From Desulfovibrio ferrophilus (GTDB lineage Bacteria; Desulfobacterota; Desulfovibrionia; Desulfovibrionales; Desulfovibrionaceae): a stretch of 64,000 nucleotides of DNA. A program made the translations under genes and the position numbers. Location: contig NZ_AP017378.1 in NCBI RefSeq assembly GCF_003966735.1, forward strand, positions 1,659,501 through 1,723,500, written 5' to 3'. A model generated the notes under the pieces. The model worked only from the letters and a program-made list of their open reading frames with translations, made no database searches and was not told the DNA's origin. Below, in pieces: positions 29,766-35,482 of the stretch (the stretch's first letter is position 1; each line of letters begins with the position of its first letter).

Positions 29766-29914
29766 TTCTTCATTAGCCCCTGCTCGTTACTCTGTCTAGA
29801 TTTTTTCAAGACTCTTTCATGACTCCACAGCATCACCTCATATTGTACAACTGTCCAACGCACGGCAACCCCAATCACAATTCTGCGTTCTTCGTCCTGC
29901 AGAGGAATAGAGGA

Positions 29915-29943
29915 CTGACGCTCCTCGCCCTACATGCTACAGT
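29915..29943 (+). promoter_or_regulatory. Possible promoter of the rhodanese gene
   Basis: CTGACG (29915-29920), a 17-base spacer and TACAGT (29938-29943) precede a good ribosome site AGGAAGG (29962-29968) and the ATG at 29977. The match is moderate. Confidence 0.3.
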
Positions 29944-29976
29944 ATATGCAAACCCAAAATCAGGAAGGTTTCAATT

Positions 29977-30378
29977 ATGCGCCAACATGCTGTTTATGCG
30001 GTGCTTGTAGTTTTGGCAGTGTTCATCGCAAGCCCACAGGCCCTTGCAAAAGATGTTGAACGGATCGAAATCACCGAATTACGGGACAAGCTCGGAGCTT
30101 CGAACCTCTTTGTGGTGGACGTCCGCACCCCATCCAGCTGGAAACAAAGCAATCACAAAATTCCTGGATCAATCCGCGCAAACCACAAAGACATCACATC
30201 CCTCGACCAGATGATCCCGCCGGGCAGTGAGGTCGTTCTCTACTGCGCCTGACCCAACGAATACACTAGCGCCCGGGTGGCGCAGAAGTTGATGGCGTTG
30301 GGCCACAAAAACGTCAAAGCTCTGGAAGGTGGATGGAATGCCTGGGAGGATTCCGGATTCCCGGTGGAGCCCAAATAG
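29977..30378 (+). CDS. Secreted single-domain rhodanese, in-frame TGA read as selenocysteine
   Basis: A 133-residue sulfurtransferase if the TGA at 30250-30252 is read as Sec (residue 92); 91 residues if it stops. A signal peptide (1-24, cleaved after ALA) places it in the periplasm. The rhodanese fold is continuous across the TGA: VVDVRTPSSWKQSNHKIPGSI before it and PNEYTSARVAQKL then GGWNAWEDSGFPVEP after it, ending at TAG 30376-30378. The loop reads Y-C90-A-U92-P-N-E, where relatives of this family carry C-x-C-P-N-E, so the TGA replaces a Cys. A SECIS-like hairpin begins right after the TGA. AGGAAGG eight bases before the ATG sets the start. The alternatives are a nonsense mutation or a sequencing error; the intact frame and hairpin argue against decay. 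Known: bacterial selenoproteins include rhodanese-type ones. Inferred: Sec at this site here. Confidence 0.75.
30253..30302 (+). promoter_or_regulatory. SECIS-like stem-loop directly after the in-frame TGA
   Basis: Immediately after TGA, CCCAACG (30253-30259) pairs perfectly with CGTTGGG (30296-30302). Inside, GCGCC (30269-30273) pairs with GGCGC (30279-30283) around the five-base loop CGGGT (30274-30278), and ACT/AGT (30265-30267, 30287-30289) can add three pairs. The loop is 21 bases after the TGA and its second base is G, both within the range described for bacterial SECIS elements. Confidence 0.65.
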
Positions 30379-30757
30379 GTTTTATTCCGATCTTTTGATG
30401 TAAACTCCACGTCCCAACAGCTTGCTCTCCAGACAAAGCCCACGCAATGTCTTGCAGAGCAAGACAACAGAACAACGCTGATTGCACCACGATTTCCCCT
30501 TTCATGCGTGCGTGTTACCTGAATGAACTGATAAGTCTTGTACGATAAGATAAATCTTGTCGTACGAGACGCTTTTCGGGGGTATTCCCCTGCCCTATCC
30601 CCCCTCAAGAGACCATACGCCCTGTCATCCTCCTGCAATTTCATGCAAATCGTAGCGCTGGCATCCTTTATGTTTATCTTCATGGAAGGTGAGACACGGC
30701 TCATACGTGGCCGTGAGAGAGACATGCTAACGAACCACCCGGAGCACTGGAGGACGT
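30379..30757. other. Long intergenic region before the CCG protein gene
   Basis: These 379 bases hold no convincing gene. They contain a long inverted repeat (30535-30570, listed separately), a perfect 6-bp hairpin CACGGC / GCCGTG at 30695-30715 close to the downstream start, and GGAGGA (30749-30754) as the ribosome site of the next gene. A long untranslated leader of that gene would explain the length. Confidence 0.6.
30535..30570. repeat. Near-perfect 17-bp inverted repeat with two-base centre
   Basis: GTCTTGTACGATAAGAT pairs with the following arm over 17 positions, two of them G-T wobbles in RNA. It is 157 bases after the rhodanese stop and about 190 bases before the CCG gene. It can be a transcription terminator (CTTTT follows after G) or a dimeric-protein binding site; TACGA and TCGTA are symmetric. 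Confidence 0.55.
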
Positions 30758-33189: not shown

Positions 33190-33317
<128 letters not shown>

Positions 33318-33391: not shown

Positions 33392-33519
<128 letters not shown>

Positions 33520-33604
33520 CCACTTTTATGCCTTCACCCCTCTCCATGTCAACCACAAACTTTCGGCTTTATGAAAAATCTTCTCCGTGGCATGCTGGGC
33601 ACCT

Positions 33605-35482
33605 ATGAAACCCTTATGCATCCGCTTTGCGGCATTCATGCTTCTTTTCCTGCTGGCCCCAGCCTGCGTTTTTGCCAGCCCCGGGGCCCAGCCCGATTTC
33701 TACTCCCTCAGATGGGAACTGTTTCGCGTGGGCGACGCAACCCCGGACACGGAGCTGCTGGCCGTGCTCTGGCTGGAACTGGATGAAGGCTACCACGCCT
33801 ATGCCAATCCCCCGGGTGAAACCGGAATGCCCACCCATTTATCCATTTCATTGGATGGCGGATCACCGCTCAAGGTCATCTATCCCGAGGGCGAAGAAGA
33901 ACCCGACGTGTTCGACCCTTCACTCATGGTTCATACTTATTATGGAAGCACCCCCCTGTTCGTTCCCTTGGGGCAACTTCCCACCAGCGCCATCTCGCTC
34001 ACCGGAAGCCTCTCCTTTGCCGCTTGCTCCGCCACCAATTGTTGGCCACTGCGTACAGAGGTTTCATTACCGCTGACAGGCATCAATCTAGCATCCCTGC
34101 CCGATGCCACAGATTTCTTCTGGTACGAATTCTATCTGAATAAAGAATTCTCCGAAGTCGTGGACACCAACAAGCAAAACACCCTGTCCCCCTCGACATC
34201 GGAATCCACCACCGAGGCACCCGCCACTTCGCCTCCTTCCTCCGTTACAGAATGGAGCTTCAGTCCCACATATTTCCATCCGGAACTGGAAGTCACGGAC
34301 ATCGAGCTGGCGCTACTTTTCGCCTTTATTGCCGGCCTGCTCCTGAACTTCATGCCCTGTGTGCTGCCGGTTCTGAGCCTCAAACTCTCAGCGCTCATGG
34401 CGGGTTCCGAAGAGCAGACCGAAGCCGACCGCATCCGGGCCTTTCGTGAACACAACCTGTTCTTCTCGGCCGGAGTAATGCTCTATTTCCTCTTCCTTGG
34501 AGCACTGCTCTCTGCCCTGGGTCTGGCCTGGGGACAACTCTTTCAGACTCCGGGACTCATCCTTGGGCTGGCCACTGTTGTTTTTGCTCTGGGGCTCTCC
34601 CTGTTCGGCCTGTGGGATCTGCCTGTGGTGGACCTCAAAGCCGACCGTTCCTCCGGCAGCCCCAAAGTCTGCGCCCTGTTCACGGGAGTTTTGGCGACAT
34701 TGCTGGCAACTCCATGCAGCGGCCCGTTCCTGGGGGGCGTGCTGGGCTGGGTGCTGCTGCAATCACCGGAAACCATCATGGCGGTGTTCCTGACCATCGG
34801 CCTGGGCATGGCCTCGCCATTCCTGTTGATGACCGCTCGGCCTGGTTTGGTCCGGCTGTTCCCAAAACCTGGCAACTGGATGATCTATCTGGAGGCCGGG
34901 GTGGGATTCTTCCTGATGGGCACGGTGCTCTACCTGCTGACCATCCTGCCCACCACCATGCTCTTACCGGCTCTGGGGCTGCTCCTGGCTGTTGCCTTCG
35001 CTGCCTGGATGTGGGGCAAATGGACGAACCTATCACAACCCAAAGGCAAACGATGGGCCATACGTCTGGCCGCAGCCGCGCTGGTGGCACTGGCAGCGCT
35101 CATGCTCTTCGCTCCCAAGGCAACGCCCATCAAGTGGCAATCCTTCGAGCCGCAGGCCTTTCGCTCCATGCTGGGTAAACGCCCCATCGTTGTCGACTTC
35201 ACGGCGGACTGGTGCCCCAACTGCAAAGTTCTGGAGCACACCACCCTCAAGACGGACAACCTCACCAAATGGCAAGAGCACTTTGACCTGACCTATGTGC
35301 AGGTGGACATGACCCAGGACAACCCCGAAGGTCTGGCCCTGCTGCGGGCCTTGGGCAGTCAATCCATCCCTGTTGTCGCCATTTTCCCGCCCGGTCCGGG
35401 TCACAAGTCCCCGCTTGTGCTACGCGACCTGTTCAGTGCCTCGCAGATGGACGACGCCCTCAAGACCACGCTGGGCGACTAG
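33605..35482 (+). CDS. dsbD: Thiol:disulfide interchange protein DsbD
   Basis: A 625-residue three-part protein that carries electrons from cytoplasmic thioredoxin to the periplasm for disulfide isomerisation and cytochrome c maturation. It has a signal peptide (1-20), an N-terminal immunoglobulin-like nDsbD domain (about 25-180, with a Cys pair FAACSATNC), an eight-helix CcdA-like domain with the conserved Cys in NFMPCVLPV and LLATPCSGPF, and a C-terminal thioredoxin-like domain with CPNC at C537-C540. The ATG at 33605 gives a proper signal peptide; the frame opens at 33587. It lies next to the tRNA unit, and PhzF follows. Confidence 0.93.
   Translation: MKPLCIRFAAFMLLFLLAPACVFASPGAQPDFYSLRWELFRVGDATPDTELLAVLWLELDEGYHAYANPPGETGMPTHLSISLDGGSPLKVIYPEGEEEPDVFDPSLMVHTYYGSTPLFVPLGQLPTSAISLTGSLSFAACSATNCWPLRTEVSLPLTGINLASLPDATDFFWYEFYLNKEFSEVVDTNKQNTLSPSTSESTTEAPATSPPSSVTEWSFSPTYFHPELEVTDIELALLFAFIAGLLLNFMPCVLPVLSLKLSALMAGSEEQTEADRIRAFREHNLFFSAGVMLYFLFLGALLSALGLAWGQLFQTPGLILGLATVVFALGLSLFGLWDLPVVDLKADRSSGSPKVCALFTGVLATLLATPCSGPFLGGVLGWVLLQSPETIMAVFLTIGLGMASPFLLMTARPGLVRLFPKPGNWMIYLEAGVGFFLMGTVLYLLTILPTTMLLPALGLLLAVAFAAWMWGKWTNLSQPKGKRWAIRLAAAALVALAALMLFAPKATPIKWQSFEPQAFRSMLGKRPIVVDFTADWCPNCKVLEHTTLKTDNLTKWQEHFDLTYVQVDMTQDNPEGLALLRALGSQSIPVVAIFPPGPGHKSPLVLRDLFSASQMDDALKTTLGD

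Follow-up and report, generated by a model that had tools for sequence, protein, structure and literature searches.

A probable selenocysteine-containing rhodanese of the C-x-U family in Desulfovibrio ferrophilus, with a conserved and covarying SECIS hairpin

Several selenoprotein forms of the rhodanese domain have been described. In the table of a 2026 review, 'Rhodanese-like domain-containing protein form 3' is entered with a CxU motif and one selenocysteine (Sec) and is credited to Zhang and Gladyshev 2005 (PMC13188914); the entry in a 2022 review names it COG0607 form 2, again CxU and with the same example accession (PMC9312934). NCBIfam holds an equivalog model, NF041203, named after the LYCAU motif. 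Forms 1, 2 and 4 (UxxS, UxxG and UxxG) share the rhodanese domain and a Sec in a short motif, and form 5, TsoB (UxxxxU; NF045694), likewise has Sec in its rhodanese domain, with a DsbD-type link given by its name. The literature passages dealing with the CxU family contained no functional test of it.

The gene analysed here lies in a window of 64,000 nucleotides from the genome of Desulfovibrio ferrophilus and belongs to this already described family, a circumstance not foreseen by the first-pass annotation of the DNA; it is ordinary within the known selenoproteome. With NF041203 and the review's entry for form 3 it shares the YCAU motif, one Sec and a single rhodanese domain, and no substantive difference from what these sources state was found. 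Compared by motif only, as tabulated in the review, forms 1, 2 and 4 begin with Sec, whereas the window gene keeps a Cys, with Sec two residues further on in a longer loop. TsoB, as entered there, has two Sec at another spacing and is named as rhodanese/DsbD fusion-like, whereas the window gene has one Sec and scores 19 bits with NF045694 against a cut-off of 805. Fold and profile match are shared with GlpE (1gmx), 6mxv, 3nhv and similar structures. On the strength of sequence comparison, we put the probability that the UGA is decoded as Sec and that the gene is a member of the CxU rhodanese family at roughly 90%.

As had been noticed from the letters alone, an in-frame TGA (30250-30252) splits a rhodanese frame that opens with ATG at 29977 and stays open for 41 more codons, up to a TAG stop (30376-30378). 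Under translation table 11 the frame stops at 30252 after 91 residues; the read-through product has 133 residues, contains YCAUPNE (active-site codons TGC-GCC-TGA, read as C90-A-U92) and ends in GGWNAWEDSGFPVEPK. The gene very probably encodes this 133-residue selenoenzyme and not the 91 residues of the standard code. With U read as C, the product scores 139.1 bits with NF041203 'rhodanese_LYCAU' (cut-off 115; 131.5 bits in the whole-genome search) and shows the Cys-x-Sec loop of that family as YCAU. The single rhodanese domain scores 59.2 bits with Pfam PF00581 (cut-off 22.2). An AlphaFold model has a mean pLDDT of 89.8, with 105 of the 133 residues at 90 or more, and Foldseek returned 140 PDB matches at E <= 0.001, to solved rhodaneses. 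At the N-terminus, the model has a helix over residues 3-17 (mean pLDDT 56-59 over residues 1-20), and the hydrophobic N-terminus and AxA site, judged by eye, suggest that the protein is probably exported. Coordinates are collected in Table 1.

Table 1. Features of the predicted selenoprotein gene, in window coordinates
Feature	Position	Strand	Basis
Predicted selenoprotein gene, rhodanese with Sec92	29977..30378	+	Reading frame; NF041203 and Pfam Rhodanese scores
Likely ribosome-binding site AGGAAGG, 8 bases before ATG	29962..29968	+	Putative, read from sequence
Probable signal peptide, residues 1-24, AxA before K25	29977..30048	+	By eye
Cys90 codon TGC	30244..30246	+	Catalytic Cys of canonical rhodaneses mostly aligns here
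UGA codon, probably read as Sec92	30250..30252	+	TGA in 124/140 family loci
Thr97 codon, loop-end residue, place of Arg in most canonical rhodaneses	30265..30267	+	Alignment
Probable bacterial SECIS upper hairpin, 5 bp, 5-base loop 30274-30278, conserved G 30275	30269..30283	+	Pairing conservation, covariation, -9.1 kcal/mol

The only other genome of the genus that was searched carries the gene too (63% identity), and its single TGA is at the same place. Beyond the TGA the sequence changes in a protein-like manner, with 16 of the 30 differences at third codon positions. A class-wide search gave matches at E <= 1e-8 in 66 of 348 genomes, and of the best 35 matches, 33 have exactly one TGA and the other two, both CxC, have none. 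In a phylum-wide search with NF041203, 165 of 395 genomes matched at E <= 1e-12, and 61 were above the cut-off. The better matches were taken as 140 family loci, the class search supplying 39 and the listed phylum matches 101; weaker matches were excluded, and 20 weaker class matches served only as a set of ordinary rhodaneses. Both active-site positions were typed by profile alignment, which gave C-x-U at 111 loci, U-x-U at 13, C-x-S at 9, C-x-C at 4, C-x-A at 2 and S-x-S at 1, so that codon 92 is TGA in 124 of 140. Position 92 is Ser or Ala in 12 members, and Sec or Cys is therefore not needed there everywhere. Exchange of Sec for Cys is seen in the four C-x-C loci, two of which (L038 and L226) fall in the same taxonomic family. 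The earlier statement that relatives carry Cys at this place holds for 80 of 80 distant loci, by construction of a search pattern that demanded Cys, but for only 4 of the 140 family members. Beyond the TGA, G118, G119, W120 and W123 are invariant in 36 sequences.

The active-site loop, C90-A-U92-P-N-E-Y-T-S, exceeds that of most canonical rhodaneses by two residues. Among the 20 ordinary rhodaneses from related genomes, it is two residues shorter in 16; 15 of the 20 align their Cys with C90 across this gap, one with the gap has Cys at residue 92, and four have a loop of equal length, one of these with Cys at 90. The loop ends in Thr97 in 110 of 124 Sec members, at a place where most canonical rhodaneses aligned have Arg; a passage in PMC8533005 says that Thr serves the same functions as the loop-end Arg. 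The favoured assignment is that C90 would be the nucleophile and U92 a resolving selenolate in the enlarged loop. In the proposed cycle, thiosulfate, polysulfide or a persulfide would donate a sulfane sulfur to C90, turning it into Cys-SSH; attack on this group by the U92 selenolate would free sulfide and join C90 to U92 in a selenenylsulfide. A periplasmic thioredoxin-like or DsbD-type reductant would reset the pair, which would make the enzyme a sulfane-sulfur reductase rather than a plain sulfurtransferase. This full reductive cycle is drawn by analogy and is offered tentatively, at somewhat under even odds.

The roles could also be reversed, with U92 as the sulfur-carrying nucleophile, C90 as a resolving or structural thiol, and the protein a conventional sulfurtransferase sped up by selenium. 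A profile alignment with 6mxv, ungapped at the loop (both rhodanese domains), places residue 92 opposite Cys, and residue 92 stands 17 away from Gly109, just as far as Cys stands from the corresponding Gly in canonical rhodaneses such as L254. We nevertheless find the reversed roles rather doubtful: ordinary rhodaneses align their Cys with C90 fifteen times as against once with residue 92, and 139 of the 140 family loci have Cys or Sec at position 90, whereas position 92 gives way to Ser or Ala in the 12 mentioned.

The annotation had further described a two-part stem-loop directly after the TGA, and the letters fold accordingly. Its limits, 30253-30302, are the outermost pair of the minimum-energy fold (-20.5 kcal/mol over 53 nt, z -2.36, with 4 of 200 shuffles as low), and the first base of the apical loop, which has G second, is the 22nd after the TGA. 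The upper hairpin pairs 30269-30273 with 30279-30283, leaving 21 nt between UGA and loop; folded alone (19 nt) it reaches -9.1 kcal/mol, not an extreme energy, since 9 of 200 shuffles go as low. Constraints on bacterial SECIS elements given in the 2026 review comprise a loop of 3-9 nt, an upper stem of 4-16 bp, a position 16-37 nt from the UGA, a G in the first two loop positions and an MFE <= -7.5 (PMC13188914). The comparison with a bacterial SECIS model that had been proposed for the mRNA fold turned out favourably, with the window element inside each of these published limits. An Rfam scan of 29900-30500 returned no family at E up to 1. Among 100,000 synonymous recodings of the window sequence alone, 2.0% form the five pairs with the codon usage of six window genes and 4.8% with uniform codons. 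Taken by itself, the hairpin in the window is only moderately unusual; the case for a SECIS is carried by conservation and covariation in 123 distinct sequences, not by the window alone.

With the T of the TGA as base 1, the stem joins bases 20-24 with 30-34 around a loop of 25-29. Counted over the 123 distinct sequences among the 124 Sec loci, the five pairs form in 121, 122, 119, 123 and 122, and all five in 116; G26, the second loop base (30275 in the window), is present at all 124 loci. Bases 21 and 33, which pair, are the wobble positions of a Ser codon (19-21) and an Ala codon (31-33), and they covary: the combination AGC/GCG occurs 51 times and AGT/GCA 48 times, AGT/GCG twice and AGC/GCA once. 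When every possible base pair within 60 nt was scanned for excess pairing, 18-36, 21-33 and 22-32 ranked highest, and sliding one side of the stem lowered the paired fraction from 0.985 to 0.24-0.61 (110 distinct C-x-U sequences). At least four of the five pairs, G at the second loop position and G or U next to it were found together at 123 of 124 Sec loci, and an MFE at or below -7.5 within 54 nt at 121 of 124. After synonymous recoding, the five pairs survived in an average of 2.5 of the 124 Sec sequences (at most 8 over 300 rounds), versus 117 observed, under nulls that apply the window's codon usage to all genomes and ignore shared ancestry.

The Cys control set consisted of the best 80 of 269 relatives, retrieved with a pattern (U as C) that could find only Cys loci. 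All five pairs occur in 5 of its 79 distinct sequences and G26 in 23; the set also lies above its own recoding null (5 of 80 vs a mean of 0.09). Of the 16 family loci that lack TGA at 92, one has all five pairs. Residue 100 is R, S, G or W in Sec members, every codon having G as its second base, and L, R, M, K, V and others in Cys loci. The two-part structure claimed earlier is thus upheld for the upper hairpin and mostly not for the lower stem (30253-30259 with 30296-30302): the two outermost of its pairs are present in 91 and 96 of 123 sequences, but only 22 of 123 keep five or more of the seven pairs, and a longer lower stem was largely dropped as a family feature.

The UGA is most probably decoded as Sec through a standard bacterial SECIS, because the TGA is conserved, the loop G is invariant, the stem is kept with covariation, and Cys relatives seldom have the hairpin. 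Rival explanations of the UGA itself were rejected on this comparative evidence. That the TGA is a true stop, leaving a decaying pseudogene or a truncated protein of 91 residues, agrees with where the table-11 frame ends; it is very improbable for a TGA kept in 124 of 140 loci, ahead of a conserved C-terminus and with a covarying hairpin. Decoding by near-cognate read-through independent of a SECIS found nothing in its favour and is equally improbable, given a loop G and a wobble-wobble covariation that accompany the UGA and are rarely kept without it. That a Cys codon was misread in sequencing or assembly, as the four Cys-encoding members could suggest, is less probable still, as the TGA recurs in the second genus member and at 122 further loci, nearly all with the hairpin.

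The Desulfovibrio ferrophilus genome (3.72 Mb, 99.98% complete) was searched for the machinery of Sec insertion, as the annotation had advised, and all four genes were found: a tRNA-Sec gene (selC; 80.9 bits, anticodon tca), selB (396.6 bits, cut-off 242.25), selA (617.9 bits) and selD (340.5 bits). Absence of selB or selC, which would have spoken against Sec, is thus not seen, and the annotation's proposal of Sec at residue 92 finds agreement in the conserved TGA, the published SECIS limits, these four genes and a curated selenoprotein family. The selD frame contains one in-frame TGA (G000:C1:455441-456355, L071), so that SelD is probably itself a selenoprotein. Binding of the SECIS hairpin by SelB with Sec-tRNA is established for bacterial selenoproteins. 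In the rhodanese mRNA, SelB and Sec-tRNA (anticodon UCA) would bind the hairpin, whose first base is the 17th after the UGA, for the ribosome to insert Sec at residue 92 of the probably exported protein.

Among the 12 loci with Ser or Ala at position 92, L200 has a nearby but displaced TGA, and the loop of L240 seems canonical in length. Seven loci (L198, L201, L206, L208, L209, L213 and L214) form a clade with Ser at 92 in which the full hairpin is lost (1-4 of the five pairs); codon 92 is TCA, one base from TGA, in six of them. L188 stands apart from this clade, with TCA at 92 and all five hairpin pairs and the loop G kept, and would seem to have exchanged Sec for Ser only recently, the SECIS being a remnant.

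At 13 of the 140 loci (L048, L054, L058, L069, L173, L182, L183, L185, L187, L194, L215, L222 and L230), from seven taxonomic families, TGA stands at both active-site positions, one codon apart, and all five hairpin pairs are present in all 13. The two TGAs lie 21 and 27 nt before the loop, both within the range given in the review (PMC13188914). In a tree built without the two active-site residues, the U-x-U label needs 9 changes, at least 7 of them forced by well-supported branches; losses count as changes, and the tree has few columns, many weak forks and a bootstrap that had not settled. The form was not found in the review's table, where form 3 has one Sec (PMC13188914), nor among the papers listed by literature searches, whose scope left out most subscription papers; it may be new, but these sources do not establish its absence from print. 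The two TGAs and the hairpin are seen in the sequences; double decoding and its chemistry are inferred. We give about even odds to the idea that the C-x-U rhodanese is a step in an evolving two-chalcogen site, in which the catalytic Cys would also become Sec, two UGAs would be served by one SECIS, and a diselenide would make a strongly reducing sulfane-sulfur reductase.

Upstream of the rhodanese gene lies a divergent gene that has no Pfam or NCBIfam match and, by eye, looks like a regulator. Downstream follow an Fe-S/CCG-domain gene, a PanE-like gene, two tRNA-Lys genes on the minus strand (33222-33297 and 33424-33499, both anticodon ctt, about 200 bases apart) and a DsbD gene (33587-35482), some 3.2 kb from the rhodanese gene. 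The one other genus member has the same gene order. None of the window neighbours was found in 10-12 kb around nine other family loci by tblastn (E 1e-6), a search of limited sensitivity, as the truncated 91-residue rhodanese query itself gave no match at three of the nine (L077, L079 and L081). A function drawn from the neighbours was rejected, with no window neighbour at 9 of 10 other family loci. The periplasmic setting beside DsbD-type thiol chemistry suggested by the annotation divides: export is probable, as judged by eye, and a connection with DsbD is weakly indicated and is not supported by conserved context.

At 29 of 60 loci (L002, L003 and L012-L069; flanks up to 1.5 kb), a same-strand membrane ORF of a single homology cluster lies upstream, 316-483 residues from stop to stop, with some cut by the locus edge. 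It is weakly amino-acid-transporter-like (57.1 and 21.4 bits against a cut-off of 556.8), and the two proteins tried have no Pfam match. Searches with three of these proteins gave no match in the window or in the genus relative's stretch of 14 kb, so the ORF does not explain the window's rhodanese gene. Clusters of opposite-strand ORFs over the rhodanese gene look like mirror frames and were dropped.

In computational terms, the wobble covariation of the CxU family is a clean sign of a bacterial SECIS. How one SECIS might serve two nearby UGAs could be tested naturally in the U-x-U relatives, and their pair, if true, would be an intramolecular diselenide across one residue. The CxU family would link the use of selenium with the chemistry of sulfane sulfur, probably within the cell envelope.
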